From NCBI GenBank assembly GCA_016887485.1, contig CP069395.1, positions 62,001 through 126,000 on the forward strand: a DNA stretch of 64,000 bases, in the 5' to 3' direction. Positions 11,551 to 62,128 of this stretch are shown here, piece by piece; within the stretch, counting starts at the first letter, position 1, and the number at the start of each line of letters is the position of its first letter. Position numbers and translations under genes: made by a program. The notes beneath the pieces were generated by a model. It worked only from the letters and a program-made list of their open reading frames with translations. It was not told where the DNA came from and made no database searches. The DNA is from Chloroflexota bacterium (GTDB taxonomy: Bacteria; Chloroflexota; Anaerolineae; Anaerolineales; Anaerolineaceae).

Positions 11551-14500
11551 CTACTGCGGGCCAACCGAGACCAGCACCGCTCGCACCAGCAGGCGGTTGA
11601 TGTACTCACCCTTGGCCGGGCTGAAGTCCGTACAGGTCATCAGAGTCACCCAATCCAGACGCTGCTCCTTGAAGGCGGCAGCCAGGTTCGACTGACTGAC
11701 CACAAGACTCTCTCGCACTTCGTAGACATAGGTTTGACCGTAGGCCTGGATTACAATTTGATCACCGTAGGAAAGGTCTCCCAGATCAGCAAAAAGACCC
11801 GGTTCATTATAGGCGGTGGTGTTATGGGCGGTCAGGACGGTATTACCGGACCAGGTTGGATAGGCGGAACCTTCCAGATAACCTACCTGATTGCCCAACC
11901 AGGTCACATCCCAGGCGCCATCACGGAATGGGACAGTCGTCACATAGGTGCTGACGCCCAATTTTGAAATTTGAATGGCCATACCGGTCGTGCTGTAGGC
12001 TAATGAGTCTGGCTGGCTGGGCATGATGGTCAAATAACCGGGTGCAAAACCAGTCTGAGGCAGTTCCTCAGCAGTCCAAGTCCTAGAAACTGTCACAGTT
12101 TCTTCCTCAACAGCAGTTATGCCCCCGTCACCATCCAGGTCAACACCGAGGACAGCGTTATTTCGGACAGAACCAGCATTTGCACTAACCCTGACGGCAT
12201 AATCAATAACCATTTCATTGATAGCTTGTTCAGCATTTGAAGCGCCCAGGTCTGGCCCCAAAGTTCCTTCCCAAATAATCCGGCCGCGTGGATATTCCAA
12301 AGTCGGTCCTTCATAATAACAATAGGTTGTGGTGGTCAGAACGGACAAGGGATCAGCCGTACAAGAGACGCCACTGGCCGTACTGCCCTCCGGCAGATCA
12401 CCTGTCGGTAAATCATAGCCACTTGAAACGCCGTCATTGAGGAAAGTTGAGCCGGAGGGAATCGGGTCACTCATCCGGGTTTGAATCGGGACGATGTTTG
12501 AATCGTTGATCCAAACAATGGACCATCCCAGCTTGGGCTGACCGGCATTATTATAGGTCTTGATACCCTTAGGCGGGTTAAAGAGGTTTCCATCAAATTC
12601 TAATGGCGTTGGGACATCATTGTTCGTTGGATCATAATCTGCATCCGGATCAGGATCGACCCCATTTTGTGAATCGTCGGTGACTGAAGTGCCTCTTTGG
12701 GTTTCACCGGTTCCAACAGCAGAATTCAGGAACGGGCCTGCATTCACAGGCACCAACTCAACCGTTACTGTCAGGGTGCCGCTTTCGCCGACATCGAGGC
12801 CGTTTAGGCCGCTGGCTAATAGGTTTGTATCGCCACCAGGACCGGAAATGCCGTTATAGAGCGGATTTACATCAAAGTCCGTGCTGCTGACATCAATAAC
12901 AGAGAACACGTGCGGGAGGGGGAAGACCGCAGAGAGATTATCCGTAATCTGAAGATTTGTCAGAGCAACGTTCCCCATATTGGCGATTTCGATCTCATAG
13001 GTGAATTGCCAGATGCCGGTACTAATCAGAACCGGTGAACTGCTCACAGTCTTGGCAACACCCAGCAAGCCACCTTCGGGAATATCCTGTGTGTCTTCAT
13101 CGGAATCGGTCAACGGGTTTTCATCAGGATCTTCCGCCATCACATCAGCATAATTGGTAAATGTACCCGCATTGATATCATCCTGGGTCACGGCATAAAC
13201 ACCCGTACAGCTGGTACTATCCACCTCACCTACTTCCAGAGTGCCGATGGTGCAACCCGTCAGGACTACATCGGGATCGGCATCCGTCACCTCGACATTG
13301 ACCAAGGTCACATTACCGGTGTTTTCAACAGTGAATTGATAGCTGATCTGATCACCGGCATTCACCATGCCCGCAGGAAGAACAACATCGTCCACAATCG
13401 TACCCGTCTTCTCGAGGGAGATCATGGGATCAGACGATAGTTCAATTTCCTCGGTATCCGAATCGGTAACTTCCTCATCATCCGTGGTCAGCGCTTTGGC
13501 ATGCGCAGTATTGGCATAAGTGCCGGAATCGATATCAGCCTGGGTCAGCGTGTAGGTCCCGGTGATTGTTGAATTTGCCTGCCCGGGAGCCAGATTGATG
13601 GTGACCGGGCTATTTGCCAGCGTGACACCGAGGTCCTCAACAGTGAGTTCGTGCAGGGTCACATTCCCGGTATTGGTAATCGTAAAGATATAGGTAATCG
13701 TGTCACCCACATTGACCTGACCACTCGGAGCAACCACATCATCGTGCAGCGTGCCAGTCTTGGTCAGGGCTAGTGATGGGTCGGGGGTTATTGAAACAGT
13801 CGTGTCGTCCGTATCGGTCACGGTGCCATTGGTTGGCGTCGTGCCGGATACATTAGCGGTGTTATAGACTGAACCGCTGTCGATCATGGCCTGGGTCAAA
13901 GGTAGTGACCCTGTAATGGTTGTGCTGTCCGATTCGCCCGGTTCCAGCGAAGCGATGGGATTACCTGCAACCGTCACCAAGGCATCGGTTACGGAGATGT
14001 TGGTCAGGGTCACATTACCTGTGTTAGTAACGGTAAAGGTGTATTCAATGGAATCGCCGACATTAGCCTGATCGGTTGGTGCGATGGTATCCATCTTGAC
14101 CGAACCTGACTTAACCAGGGCAATATCCGGCTCGCGGGTAATGGTTTGGGTATCCGTATCGAAATCTGTCACCTCTGTCGTATCCGGTGCTGTCCCGGTC
14201 ACGGTTGCTTCATTGGTGAACGATCCTGCATCAATATCCGCCTGGAGAAGAGTATAACTGCCTGTAAAGGTCAGTGTATCACTCTCGCCTGGGCCTAGGT
14301 CGATCGGCCCGCCCAGAATGGTGGCATCATCATCAGTGATCATTACGCCTGTGAGGGTCACATTGCCGGTATTTTCGACGGTGAATTCATAGGTGATCTT
14401 ATCACCCGCATCCGTTCTATCGGTCGGTGATACCTCGTCTTCAACGAGGGTACCCGTCTTGGTCAGTGAAATGGATGGCACAGCGGTAAAGGATTTCGAA

Positions 14501-17500
14501 TCCGTATCGCTGTCTGAAATCGTGGCATTATTCGGGTCTTTGGCGGAAACGGTCGCATTATTCTCAAAGGTCCCGGCATCAACATCTGCCTGAGAAAGGG
14601 AATACAACCCGGTAATAGTTGTGCTGTCGGTGGCACCGGGGGCCAGGGTAGCTATGGATCCACCAATGATCTGCACGCCAGCGACTTCGTCAGTAATCAC
14701 CAGGTCATGCAGAGTGACATTACCTGTATTCGTAATGGTGAAAATATAGGAGATCGTATCACCTGCATCCACCCGATCATTCGGTGCAATCGTATCCTGA
14801 TGCAAGGCGCCCACCTTGGTCAGTTCGACCAAGGGGATTTGAACCATCTGAACCACGGCGGTGCCGGTTTCAGGGGGTGTTTGGTCATTGGAGACAATAG
14901 CGGTATTGGTGTAATCCCCATTGTCAATATCCGCCTGAGTCACACTATGATAGGCTTCGCAATAGAGGATATCGCCCACCGCCAATTCGGCCGGCAAGGG
15001 AATAATTGTCGGATCTTCATTGAGCGTGCATGGCCCAAGGGGCAACTCTGTACCGGTGTCATCGACCGTGACGTTCGTCAAAGTGATATTTCCGGTGTTT
15101 TGAGTCACAATATCAAATGTCACCGTATCGCCCACAGCATAAACGCCCGTGGAGGTCTCAAATTTATAGACCGCTATTGAAGGATATTGCGCCAACTGAA
15201 GGCTGACATCATCCGAGACAGGTTCCACCTCATCCGCATCCGCAGAAGCAACATTGGTGAAAGTGCCCAGATCAAGGTCATCCTGGGTGACCACATAAGA
15301 AGCCGCACAGGTCATCATTTCGCCCGCAGCCAGGGTGGAACCCTGGACAGGAGTGCAGCTATCAATGACCACACCGGCGGTCTCTTCAGTCACCAGAACG
15401 TTGTTTAAATTGACTGTGCCGATATTGTTGACTTTAATACTGAATGTAATCGTGTCATCAACCTCGAAAGGTCCAACCGAGGTCAGGATCTTCTTAATGC
15501 TGATCGCCGGGCCGCCACTCAGCGGGACAGTCTCTTCATCGGACACCGGATCGGTACGATCCGAATCGGCATTCGCAGTATTGATATATTCACCGGCTGC
15601 GATATCTGCCGCTGTCACAGTGTGAGTTGCAGAACAAATCATCACATCGCCAGGATTGAGGGTGGAGCCCAAAACCGGATTACAGGCCCCGAGTACCGCG
15701 CCTTCGCCTGCATCTGTCACCTGAACATCGTTCAGTTTCATATCGCCCGTGTTGGTGACTTCCAATTCATAGGTAATAACATCGTCCTCATTGTAAGGAC
15801 CAGTGCTAGTTACCGATTTCACGATCTGCATATCAGGGGTACCGTAAACTTCGAGGGTATCCTCAGCAGGATCAGGATTGGTCACATTCGCATCACTGGA
15901 GGTGATTGAACCTTCAGGAATCACATTGCGATAGGTTGCCCTGTCATCCGCTTTGACCGCAACGGTCATTGTACAATCCTCAGGCTGCGGGTCATCGGGG
16001 TCAAGGACGCCGGAGAGGTATCCACCGCTGAGGGTCACCTGCGATTCGCCGACATTCGCCGTGAAGGTCCCACCGCAGGTATTGGTCGGGGGATCCAATG
16101 GCGCATCAACGATCACAACCCCAGTCGGGAAGGTATCCACCAATCCCAGATCATGCACAGCGGCATTACTGGTATTGGTAAGTTCAATCGTCAGAACCGA
16201 GTATTCATCTGATTCAGCCAGGATACGATTCGGTGTGAAGTATTTGCGCACACTGACACCTGGCAGGTTGGTCAATGTGGAACTGGCTGCGTCTTCATTG
16301 GAAACACCAATAAATGAAGAGACCGCACCAGCGGGAATTGTATTAATCAAGTTGCCGTTTACCCGGATAGTCGCATTCAAGGAAATCGTGCAGCGCCGCC
16401 CGGCAGCCAGGTAGCCGCCGCTGTAGTAGAAGCTTTGGCGATCTGGCGCAATAACAACCTCACCGCCACAAGTACTGGTATCAATATTGGTCGGCATGGT
16501 GATTTTCATCCCTGCGGGCATGACATCCGTGAAGCTGATTTCCGGGATCGGTACGTCATTGGGATTGATTAACAAAACGGTCAACCGTGAAGATGATCCA
16601 CCGGAAACGGAAGAGGGGTCAAATTTCTTGACCATCTCAATACTCATATCCTGAATATATAAGCGATCAGTGGCTGAGTAGCGTGGATAGGAGGGAGAAG
16701 CAGCACCGGAAACCGTTCCATAGGAATCGGTCGTACTGATGGTATTATCGCTGGTATTTGCATTACTATTGGCTTTGATCGTCACAGTAATCGTACAGGA
16801 GCCATCGACGCTACCCACCCGACCCGGAATAGAACCTCCATTGAGAACAATTGTGGAAGATCCAGGATCGGCGGTAAGCGCACCGCCACAGGTCGTGCTG
16901 GCGTTCGGTTCATCAGCAACTACGAATTCAGTGGTCCCCATCGTTGCTAGACGATCCTGCAGCCAGACCCCCGTCATTGGCCTCTCATCCTCATTGGTCA
17001 ATGTGATGGTCAGAACACTTCTGCCACCCCAGGTAATGATATCGGGTGCAAAGGTTTTTGAAACCAGATAGTCAGAGAAACGCATGTTGTCACTGACCGA
17101 GCTTGGGAAAGTCTGATTCTGGTCGTTGGTCAGGTCGATCGGTGAAATGGCATTGGTATAGGTGCCGGGATCATTTGCCGTGACATATACATACACATAA
17201 CAGGTCACACCGGCTGAAATCTCCCCATCAATCAGGGAGAAACTGCTGTCCCCCGCCACCCCGGTGACTGAAGCTTCAGCACCACAGTTTGTAAGTGAAT
17301 AAGTCATCGGCGAAGAAATAACCATGCCGAAGGGTAGGTTATCCGTGAGAGTCACACCTGTGAGGTTCTTGTCCTCAGGCGCTTTAAGCTGAAGCCGTAT
17401 CCGAATAGCTGTTCCGGTAGGCTGAGGCTGATTGCTGTCTTCAAATGTCTTGGAAAGGGTGGCTCCCAACCCTACTGGATAAACGTAAACGTCACGATAA

Positions 17501-19260
17501 GTGCTGCTATTGTTAGTGATCCCCGAGCCGATGATTGCCTGAGCGGGAATGGTATTCCGATATGTGCCGGCTGAACCGCCTGCCGTAGTTGTCACAAGGG
17601 CAGAAAATGTACAGGATGAGTTCGCACCGATGGTACCGTTTGTCAAAGTGATTGAAGAAGCGGTTACAGTGACCGTGCCGCCGCAGGTTGTGGTGACATC
17701 AGGGATCGCAGCTGGGGTAAGTGGAGAGGGTAAATCATCCGTTAGGTTAACGTTGGTAATTTCTGTGGCAGTGGGATTGGTCAACCGAATCGAAACCCGA
17801 GTCTGGCCGCCCAATTCAAAGCGCGTGGGCGAAAAATACTTATAGACATCTATGCTTTGCGGGTCCACAACAATATAGTCCGAAGCACTGTTGGTGTTGG
17901 ATACACTCTGATCATTCGTCAGTGTGTTCGTCGGAATGGAATTCCACATCGTTCCGCCGGCGGAGTTGCCCGGGGCAGTTACTGAAGCCGTAATCGTACA
18001 GGTTCCAAGCGTGACTGTTGAGCCATTGTCAACCCCTGCCGGGATTGTCCCCGAGGAGAGCGTCAGGGTTTGATCATTGTTGGAGAGTGTCAAAGAAGCC
18101 GCTGTTTCGCCGGTTTCACAGGTTGTGGAGAGTGTACCCGGGACAAAGACCAGGTCATAGGTACTCATATCATCCACCAATCCAGCATTGGTCAGGGTTT
18201 GTGTATGTGGATTCGAAATTGTCAGAGTCACTAACGAAGAATCCTCACCCGCCAGAATCGAACTGGCAGCGAAGTATTTCGATATCTGCACCCCTCTAAC
18301 AGTCAGATCATCCTGGGTAGAATTTGGATTGGTCACACCTTCATAAGTTGTCAGCTCATTCGCTGGAATGTTATTAATGTAGTAACCTGGTGTTGTCCCT
18401 TCAACATAATAGTAAGCATAGCAGGAACTATTGGCAGGGATCTCTGCATTTTGTACAGTGAAGCTGGTTCCTCCGACTTCACCAACCAAACTCACCTCGG
18501 AGCCGCAATTCGATGTATAGGGGCTCCCCGTACCGGCAACCACCAGGCCAGTTGGCAAGTTATCGGTAATGCTCACCTGATGGAGAGCATAATTGGTGTC
18601 ACGGTTATAGATTCTGATGGTGACTCGGGATTCCTGCCCAAGCCAAACACTGGTATCCGCGAAATATTTATAAACATAGGGGTCGGTCAATGTGACCACA
18701 TTCAGGGTTTCGTTCACGCCGCTGGTGTTGGCAAAATAGAGCGTCTCATCTTCAGGCGGAGTATATTGCGCAGTGAGATCGCCGGGGACTAATTCATTAT
18801 CCAGATTACCGGTCGTAAAGGAAGTCACGTTGACGGAAACCTGACAGGAGCCATTAATAGAGCCAACCTTCGCGCCGACGGTGCCGCCAGTCAGTGAGAG
18901 GGTCGTTCCCCCAGCTACTGCTGTGACCGAACCGCCACAGGTGGAAGCCGCCTGGGGACTATCCGCAATGATGATCCCTTCTTGCACCTTATCCAAAACA
19001 TCAGTGAAGGCGACGCTGCTCAAGGCATAATCATTGGGATTGTAGATATACACCGTCAGACGGGATGTACCACCCGGGGGAATGGAAACCGGCACAAATT
19101 TCTTATTAATTTCAGGGGGGATTTGAACGATTTGTTGGAGAGGAGCGCCTTCTCCATCCTCAGCCTGAACGGGCTGGATGGCAAAGATCAGTGAGAATAA
19201 GACAAGAATGATCGTGAAGCAGGCAAATTGAAACGACTTAGAAAATTTGGCAGAGTGCAT
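11551..19260 (-). CDS. Giant DUF11-type repeat adhesin with internal LPQTG motif and C-terminal sortase domain
   Basis: The ATG at 19260 is preferred because GGAG lies 9 nt upstream of it; a codon at 19275 lacks an SD. This gives 2569 residues (numbers below count from 19275). A signal peptide ending near QPVQA is followed by eight ~125-residue units of one Ig-like type (each opening with a K-x-F segment and holding TNP/TD-LP motifs). About nine DUF11-type units follow (TNTGNVTL, VTD), then a further beta domain. LPQTG lies at 2405-2409, not followed by a membrane helix. The final ~150 residues are a sortase: H2484 in NTVLTAHN, C2548 in TLMTCTDF and R2561 in NRLLVRA form the expected triad. 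The protein is exported and probably wall-associated. The sortase could act on its own LPQTG or on others; this is inference. Confidence 0.9.
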   Translation of the reverse strand: MHSAKFSKSFQFACFTIILVLFSLIFAIQPVQAEDGEGAPLQQIVQIPPEINKKFVPVSIPPGGTSRLTVYIYNPNDYALSSVAFTDVLDKVQEGIIIADSPQAASTCGGSVTAVAGGTTLSLTGGTVGAKVGSINGSCQVSVNVTSFTTGNLDNELVPGDLTAQYTPPEDETLYFANTSGVNETLNVVTLTDPYVYKYFADTSVWLGQESRVTIRIYNRDTNYALHQVSITDNLPTGLVVAGTGSPYTSNCGSEVSLVGEVGGTSFTVQNAEIPANSSCYAYYYVEGTTPGYYINNIPANELTTYEGVTNPNSTQDDLTVRGVQISKYFAASSILAGEDSSLVTLTISNPHTQTLTNAGLVDDMSTYDLVFVPGTLSTTCETGETAASLTLSNNDQTLTLSSGTIPAGVDNGSTVTLGTCTITASVTAPGNSAGGTMWNSIPTNTLTNDQSVSNTNSASDYIVVDPQSIDVYKYFSPTRFELGGQTRVSIRLTNPTATEITNVNLTDDLPSPLTPAAIPDVTTTCGGTVTVTASSITLTNGTIGANSSCTFSALVTTTAGGSAGTYRNTIPAQAIIGSGITNNSSTYRDVYVYPVGLGATLSKTFEDSNQPQPTGTAIRIRLQLKAPEDKNLTGVTLTDNLPFGMVISSPMTYSLTNCGAEASVTGVAGDSSFSLIDGEISAGVTCYVYVYVTANDPGTYTNAISPIDLTNDQNQTFPSSVSDNMRFSDYLVSKTFAPDIITWGGRSVLTITLTNEDERPMTGVWLQDRLATMGTTEFVVADEPNASTTCGGALTADPGSSTIVLNGGSIPGRVGSVDGSCTITVTIKANSNANTSDNTISTTDSYGTVSGAASPSYPRYSATDRLYIQDMSIEMVKKFDPSSVSGGSSSRLTVLLINPNDVPIPEISFTDVMPAGMKITMPTNIDTSTCGGEVVIAPDRQSFYYSGGYLAAGRRCTISLNATIRVNGNLINTIPAGAVSSFIGVSNEDAASSTLTNLPGVSVRKYFTPNRILAESDEYSVLTIELTNTSNAAVHDLGLVDTFPTGVVIVDAPLDPPTNTCGGTFTANVGESQVTLSGGYLSGVLDPDDPQPEDCTMTVAVKADDRATYRNVIPEGSITSSDANVTNPDPAEDTLEVYGTPDMQIVKSVTSTGPYNEDDVITYELEVTNTGDMKLNDVQVTDAGEGAVLGACNPVLGSTLNPGDVMICSATHTVTAADIAAGEYINTANADSDRTDPVSDEETVPLSGGPAISIKKILTSVGPFEVDDTITFSIKVNNIGTVNLNNVLVTEETAGVVIDSCTPVQGSTLAAGEMMTCAASYVVTQDDLDLGTFTNVASADADEVEPVSDDVSLQLAQYPSIAVYKFETSTGVYAVGDTVTFDIVTQNTGNITLTNVTVDDTGTELPLGPCTLNEDPTIIPLPAELAVGDILYCEAYHSVTQADIDNGDYTNTAIVSNDQTPPETGTAVVQMVQIPLVELTKVGALHQDTIAPNDRVDAGDTISYIFTITNTGNVTLHDLVITDEVAGVQIIGGSIATLAPGATDSTTITGLYSLSQADVDAGTFENNATVSAKDPNNATISDSDTDSKSFTAVPSISLTKTGTLVEDEVSPTDRTDAGDKITYEFTVENTGNVTLTGVMITDDDATILGGPIDLGPGESDTLTFTGSYTLLQADIDAGSFTNEATVTGTAPDTTEVTDFDTDTQTITREPDIALVKSGSVKMDTIAPTDQANVGDSIEYTFTVTNTGNVTLTNISVTDALVTVAGNPIASLEPGESDSTTITGSLPLTQAMIDSGSVYNTANVSGTTPTNGTVTDTDDTTVSITPDPSLALTKTGTLHDDVVAPSGQVNVGDTITYIFTITNTGNVTLHELTVEDLGVTLANSPVTINLAPGQANSTITGTYTLTQADIDSGTYANTAHAKALTTDDEEVTDSDTEEIELSSDPMISLEKTGTIVDDVVLPAGMVNAGDQISYQFTVENTGNVTLVNVEVTDADPDVVLTGCTIGTLEVGEVDSTSCTGVYAVTQDDINAGTFTNYADVMAEDPDENPLTDSDEDTQDIPEGGLLGVAKTVSSSPVLISTGIWQFTYEIEIANMGNVALTNLQITDNLSAVFPLPHVFSVIDVSSTDFDVNPLYNGISGPGGDTNLLASGLNGLDVGESGTLTVTVELVPVNAGPFLNSAVGTGETQRGTSVTDDSQNGVDPDPDADYDPTNNDVPTPLEFDGNLFNPPKGIKTYNNAGQPKLGWSIVWINDSNIVPIQTRMSDPIPSGSTFLNDGVSSGYDLPTGDLPEGSTASGVSCTADPLSVLTTTTYCYYEGPTLEYPRGRIIWEGTLGPDLGASNAEQAINEMVIDYAVRVSANAGSVRNNAVLGVDLDGDGGITAVEEETVTVSRTWTAEELPQTGFAPGYLTIMPSQPDSLAYSTTGMAIQISKLGVSTYVTTVPFRDGAWDVTWLGNQVGYLEGSAYPTWSGNTVLTAHNTTAYNEPGLFADLGDLSYGDQIVIQAYGQTYVYEVRESLVVSQSNLAAAFKEQRLDWVTLMTCTDFSPAKGEYINRLLVRAVLVSVGPQ

Positions 19261-19313
19261 CGGCGTCTTCTCCATTTTTCGTATTAATATATTAATAATG
19301 TCTATATTAGTAA

Positions 19314-35045: not shown

Positions 35046-36026
35046 ATGCCCCTGCGCGTTCATTTTTATCGTTTGACTTTTGGCGCTTACACTGACGAGT
35101 TCCGTTCCCTTCTGGACCCCAAGATCATCGTCACGGAAGGTCAGGAGATTCCCCAGAAACCTAATTTTGATATCCTGGTTTATCCCACACCTAAACCGGA
35201 GTGGATCGAAGCCAGCCCCAACCTCAAGGCGATAATCATCCCCTGGGCTGGGCTGCCCGAAGAGACCCGCACCTTGATGCTTAACTATCCGAAAGTAACC
35301 GTTCATAACCTGCACCATAATAACGTAAATACCGCTGAAATGGCTTTGACCTTACTTCTAGCCGCTGCCAAACGCCTGATCCCAATGGACCAGGCCCTTC
35401 GCAGGAATGACTGGCGGCCGCGCTATGAGGGACCTAAAGCCATCCTGCTGCGCGGTAAGCGAGCCCTGATCCTCGGCTTTGGTGAAGTCGGTCAGGCGCT
35501 GGCCGGTCTCTGTTTGGGATTAGGAATGAAAGTGATGGCGACCAAGAAACATCCGGAGGATTATCAAGGTCACCTGGATGTCGATATCTATCCCGACGAG
35601 CTGATGGCTGAACTGCTTTCAACGGCCGATATCCTGCTGATTGCCCTCCCCCTCACCTCCGAGACAGAAGGGCTGATCGGAGAAGCAGAACTCAACCGAA
35701 TGCCGCGCGGCGGCCTGCTGGTCAACACCGGGCGCGGCCCAGTGGTCGATCAATGGGCGCTGTATAACGCCCTGAAGTCCGGCCAACTGCGCGCCGCCGG
35801 CAGTGACGTTTGGTACCATTACCCTGAATCGCATGAAGCCCGCGCCAACACTCCACCCACCGATGCACCCTTGGGTGAGTTGGATAATTTTGTCCTCAGT
35901 CCCCACCGTGGCGGAATGGTGGAAGAAGTCGAACATCAGCGGATCGTTGCGTTGGCGAAATTACTGAATGCCGCCAACCGCGGTCAGCCCATTCTCAATA
36001 AAGTCGATCTGGTATTGGGATATTAA
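35046..36026 (+). CDS. D-2-hydroxyacid dehydrogenase family protein
   Basis: This 326-residue protein matches the NAD-dependent 2-hydroxyacid dehydrogenases. The nucleotide-binding fold carries LILGFGEVGQALAG near 142. The segment MPRGGLLVNTGRGPVVDQWA (~218-237) contains the active-site region, and LSPHRGGM near the C-terminus holds the catalytic histidine. The N-terminal catalytic half is divergent, so the acid reduced is unclear. AGGAG precedes the ATG. The alpha/beta hydrolase gene begins 40 bp downstream and may be co-transcribed. Confidence 0.85.
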   Translation: MPLRVHFYRLTFGAYTDEFRSLLDPKIIVTEGQEIPQKPNFDILVYPTPKPEWIEASPNLKAIIIPWAGLPEETRTLMLNYPKVTVHNLHHNNVNTAEMALTLLLAAAKRLIPMDQALRRNDWRPRYEGPKAILLRGKRALILGFGEVGQALAGLCLGLGMKVMATKKHPEDYQGHLDVDIYPDELMAELLSTADILLIALPLTSETEGLIGEAELNRMPRGGLLVNTGRGPVVDQWALYNALKSGQLRAAGSDVWYHYPESHEARANTPPTDAPLGELDNFVLSPHRGGMVEEVEHQRIVALAKLLNAANRGQPILNKVDLVLGY

Positions 36027-61942: not shown

Positions 61943-62128
61943 ATGTTTAACTTTTCGAACTGGGGTATCATCGCCCTGATCTGCGGCCTGATTGGCCTTC
62001 CGATTGCCGGGATCATTGAAGACAGGAAGGGTGCTCCGTCCATTGGTGCTATCGTCGCCGGGATGGGTATTGTCTTTGTCGTCCTGGTACTCGTCCGTTT
62101 CCTGATGATCCAGCTTAATATCATCTAG
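61943..62128 (+). CDS. Small two-helix membrane protein
   Basis: The 61-residue protein consists of two hydrophobic segments (WGIIALICGLIGLPIAGII and SIGAIVAGMGIVFVVLVLV) joined by a short charged loop (EDRKGAP). GGAAAGGGG precedes the ATG and a terminator follows, so it is a real, independently expressed gene. No family or function is recognisable. Confidence 0.7.
   Translation: MFNFSNWGIIALICGLIGLPIAGIIEDRKGAPSIGAIVAGMGIVFVVLVLVRFLMIQLNII

Follow-up and report, generated by a model that had tools for sequence, protein, structure and literature searches.

A recurrent signal-sortase tail suggests that surface proteins of Anaerolineales anchor themselves

A giant adhesin ending in a sorting motif and a sortase

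The window analyzed here is the whole stretch of 64,000 nucleotides (positions 62,001 to 126,000 of contig CP069395.1, assembly GCA_016887485.1) from a Chloroflexota bacterium of the family Anaerolineaceae. An open reading frame on the reverse strand (11551–19275; all features below lie on the same strand) encodes a predicted protein of 2,574 amino acids, in which translation and Pfam matches revealed a signal peptide, Ig-like repeats, the motif LPQTGF, a linker, and a sortase domain. The predicted signal peptide (19162–19275, about residues 1–38) has a hydrophobic segment from residue 11. The 17 Pfam repeat stretches that follow (12670–19116, within residues 54–2202) comprise eight DUF7933, eight DUF7507, and one DUF11, in line with the roughly 17 Ig-like repeats of the original prediction. 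DUF7933 counts among the intramolecular isopeptide domain families listed in passages of PMC12617251, and these repeats may be cross-linked inside, as in pilins.

Between the last repeat and the motif, residues 2203–2404 (12064–12669) had no Pfam match. The motif itself (12046–12063, residues 2405–2410), identified from sequence and conservation, lies about 170 residues from the C-terminus and is joined by a 23-residue linker (11977–12045), ordered in an AlphaFold model and partly conserved, to the Pfam sortase domain PF04203 (11569–11976, residues 2434–2569). The chain stops five residues past this domain. Codons read from the sequence and an alignment of relatives (A2, below) placed the catalytic residues at His2484 (11824–11826; H95 in A2), Cys2548 (11632–11634; C159), and Arg2561 (11593–11595; R172). 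PF04203 scored 69.4 bits against a cut-off of 26.6, and TIGR01076 scored 41.1 against 39.35. The NCBIfam model for class C (NF033745) stayed below its cut-off (56.8 against 160 bits), as did those for classes D, E, F, and GN (42.4/165, 32.2/160, 35.1/166, and 24.8/158 bits, respectively).

A hydropathy scan of the protein found a single N-terminal signal and no hydrophobic helix or charged tail after LPQTGF; nor did the sortase domain have an adjoining membrane segment of its own, in contrast to class C. An LPQTG without a membrane helix, followed by a sortase complete in His, Cys, and Arg, had been predicted from the sequence, and all of these features were confirmed. LPQTG is the sole LPxTG in the protein, shuffled versions of which averaged 0.1, and an LPxTG fell inside the 40-residue stretch before the sortase in six of 2,000 shuffles. 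The prediction that the window holds no separate LPXTG substrate or sortase gene was borne out by a PF04203 and motif scan. Across open frames of at least 60 amino acids, the only other LPxT(G/A/S) was an LPLTS at 35646, without a hydrophobic tail.

The host genome (2.9 Mb, two contigs) contains three PF04203 matches, each at the C-terminal end of a long open frame (1362, 2587, and 1609 amino acids) and each preceded by LPxTGF (LPQTGF, LPETGF, and LPLTGF). The cargo differs among them: DUF7933/DUF7507 in the window gene, Big_12, Big_3_5, and cadherin in another, and fn3 and GH85_C matches in the third, where no single stretch passed alone. The other two genes (L150, 2114–6931, and L151, 13877–17965; G000 C1) lie on the other contig, with starts about 22 kb apart. 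No stand-alone sortase was found in the host genome by PF04203, although the assembly is 95% complete and one could be missing, and no match to the LPXTG anchor PF00746 exceeded the cut-off. Three further genomes of the same genus (G243, G263, and G357) had no PF04203 match at E ≤ 0.001, compared with three fused sortases in the window genome, which suggests patchy gain or loss within the genus.

Conservation, distribution, and cargo of the tail

Relatives were sought in a species-genome collection with two peptide patterns inside the sortase core, leaving the motif unused, and the best 80 of 81 confirmed places were retained. The titles of all 80 loci name Anaerolineae, Anaerolineales, Anaerolineaceae, genera of that group, or Chloroflexi/Chloroflexota, and include the named isolates Leptolinea tardivitalis (L009), Longilinea arvoryzae (L035), and Levilinea saccharolytica (L074). 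In the profile searches described below, the open frames are long, nearly all without inner stops. A motif of the form xPx(T/S)G(F/Y) precedes the sortase in 78 loci, with T in 77, F in 77, and a first residue of L (49), I (19), or others (10). In a 79th locus (L010), the open frame lacks the motif and LPSTGF is readable just upstream in another frame; L081, a short frame with a partial domain, is without it. Lack of conservation of LPQTG among homologues of the same domain order had been named in advance as what would refute the prediction; these 78 loci, together with the 30 of 30 fused loci of a family search (10 of them repeating genes of the first 80), show that it is conserved.

Alignment A2 contains 80 rows, consisting of the window protein, its two own paralogues, and 77 loci, with L010, L081, and L015 (which runs off its contig) left out. 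The catalytic His, Cys, and Arg are each present in all 80 rows, as are the P and G of the motif, and its T and F are present in 79. The x position of the motif and the 15 residues upstream are free to vary, and the linker has conserved positions at T27, L29, P30, Q32, P33, and Y38 (A2 numbering). Further loci of a class search (L162–L188) had the motif in 26 of 27 cases, five of the 27 being repeats, among them the window itself; the exception, L188 (the same gene as L204, a 203-amino-acid frame with the core), is without the motif. Among 120 sequences distinct at 97% identity, L188 included, 119 had the motif (P 119, T 117, G 119, F 118), although loci added after the first 80 came via a motif-containing profile and are less independent. 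Motifs of divergent fusions were LPMTGF, IPQTGF, IPDTGY, IPETGY, and LPTTGR, and IPVTG and FPQTG also occur in the family. Two loci carry two tandem sorting-type motifs before the sortase (L049 near 5956, LPDTGF and LPNTGF; L200, IPQTGF and LPSTGM).

Stand-alone sortases of the class showed a different pattern. None of its 30 best PF04203 matches, which are stand-alone frames (137–420 amino acids, two cut by contig ends), had the motif, or any LPxT(G/A) in the frame; these controls were the best-scoring of the class rather than a random or same-genome draw. A family profile search was bimodal. Among the matches listed, 79 reached E ≤ 1.3e-53 in 35 of 61 genomes, in open frames of 287–4021 amino acids (median 1,233; at least 500 in 77 of the 79), and the weaker listed matches, in frames of about 300 amino acids, mostly start around position 42, beyond the motif. 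In the class sample, 28 of 37 genomes of the window's own order had a match at E ≤ 1e-25; at most eight candidates per genome were scored there and fused copies per genome are thus lower bounds. Across the phylum sample, 29 of 400 genomes had a match at E ≤ 1e-45, and 28 of these belong to the same order. Besides the fused type, 26 of the 28 genomes of the order that have it hold one or two further sortases; in one genome, G334, as in the window's, no stand-alone sortase was detected. On these sequence comparisons, the motif is tied to the fused form of the sortase, and the fused adhesin belongs to a large modular family.

The proteins that carry the tail are diverse. We scanned 20 of 77 relatives with Pfam, hand-chosen rather than random, and found the tail behind a subtilase (L051), Kelch (L017), RCC1 (L073), SBBP or DUF5122 propellers (L004, L024), LamG/Big_12 (L009), cadherin/Big_12 (L044), Big_5 (L067), a right-handed beta-helix (L022), GEVED (L012), and DUF11 (L019, L027, L080); in seven of the 20, the sortase was the sole domain at E ≤ 1e-5. 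The subtilase protein (L051, 4246–6507), with a fervidolysin-like prodomain and an LPATGF-sortase tail, is a protease with its own sortase. An N-terminal hydrophobic segment was present in 39 of 47 complete open frames of the family. A segment after the motif exceeded the hydropathy threshold in four of the 47, and in each of these it was the first strand region of the sortase core. Motif, linker, and sortase together thus appear from sequence to behave as a portable sorting tail.

Related arrangements occur elsewhere in the order and the class. In other genomes of the order, three anchor-like proteins (L215, L217, and L218) carry LPNTGFADEV, LPTTGFADEV, or LPSTGFADEV, followed by a helix and RR; they resemble a single family and fall slightly short of the PF00746 cut-off; the other anchor-like tails of the order-wide list lack the Phe. 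That order-wide search for canonical anchors was a weak screen, with matches in 12 of 41 genomes at E ≤ 0.05 and in four of 41 over the cut-off. At three loci (L211, L213, and L227), LPxTG-helix frames lie on the same strand as sortase frames. In other families of Anaerolineae, giant frames end in repeats, LPxTG, two helices, a Pro-rich linker, and a sortase, in all four examined (L189 in G242, L190 in G313, L191 in G163, and L192 in G279) of the eight frames above 1,000 amino acids in that part of the list, and this order is a second form of substrate-sortase fusion. Both forms could have arisen if adjacent genes for substrate and sortase fused and the helices were lost afterwards. In a phylogeny of 96 cores, the stand-alone rows form a clean split (100/100). 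Support for the main fused group (49 rows) is only 82/83, the divergent fused L200 and L201 lie outside this group, and the helix-bearing fusions take two places, neither of them forced.

Structural models and the class C lid

The best sequence matches among solved structures were 24rr_A (E 1.9e-18), 4d70_A (7e-17), and 2w1j_A (2.7e-16). These matches are mainly class C (pilus) sortases, apart from 4d70_A, which is class D by its title. An AlphaFold model of motif, linker, and sortase had a mean pLDDT of 92.6, with the motif ordered and itself of high pLDDT, although AlphaFold may have learnt class C lids. We compared this model and a second one without residues 1–21 with solved chains. In structure, class C sortases ranked near the top (Z 17.4), at the same score as class A and E rows.

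The motif segment added 8–15 aligned residues in 13 class C structures (with and without the segment: 3rbk 150/137, 3tbe 149/137, 2w1j 150/138, 2wts 151/138, 2w1k 152/139, 4g1j 149/137, 4g1h 144/133, 2xwg 146/134, 7cg9 165/150, 3g66 145/137, 4d7w 142/134, 3rbj 146/137, 3o0p 148/139), with 3re9 the class C exception (139/138, a gain of only 1). Five class A/E/F structures were unchanged (5cuw, 7cfj, and 7f87, each 134/134; 5uus 135/135; 5utt 138/138), but the Bacillus anthracis class A sortase SrtA (2kw8) gained 10 (155/145), so class C is not alone in showing the gain. With the segment, the first aligned chain residue moved from 60 to 34 in 3rbk and from 67 to 46 in 2w1j. The first aligned model residue against 3rbk was 6 with the segment and about 36 without it, and linker residues 22–35 may supply part of the gain.

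Model residues 6–35, which include the motif and some linker residues, overlay residues 34–59 of Streptococcus agalactiae SrtC1 (3rbk) and 46–66 of S. pneumoniae SrtC1 (2w1j). According to passages of PMC3166054, the lid of 3rbk spans residues 44–55, with Leu47 and Asp49-Pro50-Tyr51, and the lid anchor of 2w1j is Asp58-Pro59-Trp60. The class C lid is described in passages of PMC3493515 as a pseudo-substrate whose DP(Y/F) overlaps the LPAT bound to Staphylococcus aureus sortase A, with similarly placed prolines, and removal of the N-terminal region raised activity. In the models, the motif segment thus appears to follow the class C lid over the active-site groove, and the place of the pseudo-substrate lid appears to hold a genuine LPxTG in the fused family. 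Class C substrate peptides listed in the same source include IPNTG, IPQTG, IPKTG, and FPKTG, so that the family's IPVTG and FPQTG are within the known range. The original prediction that the sortase could cut in cis turned on whether LPQTG reaches the active site; the lid-like path makes this plausible, while the gain in alignment can be placed only within model residues 6–35.

We also considered coevolution between motif and core. Mutual information across 135 sequences (repeats of the same genes included, L188 left out) linked positions 23, 25, and 28 to 100–107, after the catalytic His, and to 135–145. These links were weak (z 2.1–4.6), with partners of similar strength elsewhere and confounding by phylogeny, and were not counted as evidence.

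Self-anchoring and its alternatives

We lean towards the reading that the last ~170 residues form a self-contained sorting tail, in which the enzyme would attack its own Thr-Gly and pass the cargo to the wall or to a neighbor. We infer docking, cleavage, nucleophile, acceptor, and wall attachment as follows. The protein would be secreted via its N-terminal signal, the sortase would fold, and LPxTGF, at the position of the class C lid in the model comparison, would enter its own active-site groove. Given the conserved chemistry, Cys2548 would then attack Thr-Gly, with the adhesin left bound to its own sortase through a thioester. A wall amine or a neighbor's lysine would take over the adhesin, and the sortase domain would be shed after a single use. 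The wall is a possible acceptor: passages of PMC13319060 state that Chloroflexota are generally considered monoderm, that Litorilinea has a peptidoglycan-like layer, and that tomograms of some members have been described as diderm. One point against self-anchoring is that, without a membrane anchor, nothing evident would hold the protein close to the wall until transfer.

A structural function in addition to recognition is indicated by the near-invariant Phe and the conserved linker, which argue that the segment is also held as a lid; the motif may be both signal and lid. That PxTGF is a lid only, a built-in pseudo-substrate that closes the sortase until a partner displaces it, with the enzyme acting on other proteins and the motif uncut in cis, seems to us unlikely. 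In its favor, the segment appears to take the path of the class C lid, the lids of that class are called pseudo-substrates in passages of PMC3493515, which report raised activity on N-terminal removal and in which lid cutting is unreported, the Phe resembles the aromatic residue of DP(F/W/Y), and the linker is conserved. Yet a lid would not require an intact scissile Thr-Gly alongside a free x, as found in this family where class C lids have DP(F/W/Y). The same LPxTGFADEV followed by a helix and RR also stands in the three anchor-like proteins of the order, all below the PF00746 cut-off. Finally, a lid alone leaves unexplained why the module ends so many different proteins; the same tail on many unrelated secreted cargos is hard to reconcile with a sortase tasked only elsewhere.

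Alternatively, the motif could be an ordinary signal that is processed in trans, whether a stand-alone sortase or the domain of a second fused molecule does the work, an explanation we judge improbable to a similar degree. It draws on the additional sortases, one or two per genome, in 26 of the 28 fused-type genomes of the order, which argue against self-cleavage insofar as processing in trans is possible there, and on the LPxTG-helix proteins that adjoin sortase frames at L211, L213, and L227. It fits poorly with the window's genome (95% complete) and G334, where no stand-alone sortase was detected, and with the absence of the usual hydrophobic retention helix, and it leaves unexplained why a conserved linker ties motif and sortase together at an almost constant spacing. 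A chance motif in a repeat-rich protein, combined with a domain-fusion or annotation artefact, has next to no probability and was ruled out by motif conservation: LPxTG does arise at 0.1 per shuffled protein and most relatives come, by their titles, from metagenome assemblies, but 119 of 120 distinct sequences carry the motif, three isolates are among them, and the long frames are nearly free of inner stops.

Self-anchoring by a recurrent signal-sortase tail is what these comparisons suggest. A more far-reaching version, which we consider quite doubtful, is that these are single-use, membrane-free, "self-charging" proteins that would each convert their own lid to a thioester and be welded to any docking amine, forming a covalent matrix among themselves or with foreign surfaces, beyond attachment to the cell's own wall. 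Its scope, equally speculative, would be many bacteria of one order, with giant repeat proteins, proteases, and propellers as cargo.

Textbook sortase sorting involves two proteins and a membrane-held substrate. In ordinary surface proteins, a membrane helix and a charged tail after LPXTG hold the protein for a separate membrane sortase. The fused tail shares with the canonical signal (PF00746) an LPxTG pentapeptide at the C-terminal side of secreted repeat proteins, and the string LPxTGFA with the anchor-like L215, L217, and L218, but the sortase domain replaces the hydrophobic helix and positive tail. It resembles class C sortases in its best sequence matches other than 4d70_A and in a pre-core segment that appears to lie over the active site. 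It differs from them in having (L/I)PxTGF where their lid has DP(F/W/Y) and in lacking an adjoining helix, whereas class C enzymes are separate integral membrane proteins (passages of PMC3493515). The engineered STEPL polypeptide likewise joins cargo, LPETG, and sortase, and its sortase frees the cargo while coupling it to an amine; STEPL is man-made with an added Gly nucleophile, according to passages of PMC11561820, while the window protein is natural, predicted to be secreted, and has a conserved, ordered linker. Clostridium perfringens SrtC (PDB 7d6t) has, by its title, a sortase and sorting motif in one structure, but with the motif C-terminal.

Sortases and LPXTG signals are each known, and the novelty lies in their arrangement and probable working mode, which we did not find described. 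Our search of the open-access literature, with subscription papers mostly outside its scope, found no papers on a sortase fused to its own signal. A survey of isopeptide domains restricted its sortase-motif scan to the final 50 residues (passages of PMC12617251), and a scan of this kind would miss signals such as this one, about 170 residues from the C-terminus.

The fused tail could offer a natural starting point for sortase fusions that are now built by hand. It would also open the role of sortase lids as pseudo-substrates to direct tests, as the lid here appears to be a real substrate. The finding bears on Chloroflexota, a phylum whose envelope is still debated (passages of PMC13319060). 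If true, a natural one-piece signal and enzyme would be a new way of displaying proteins on the cell surface.
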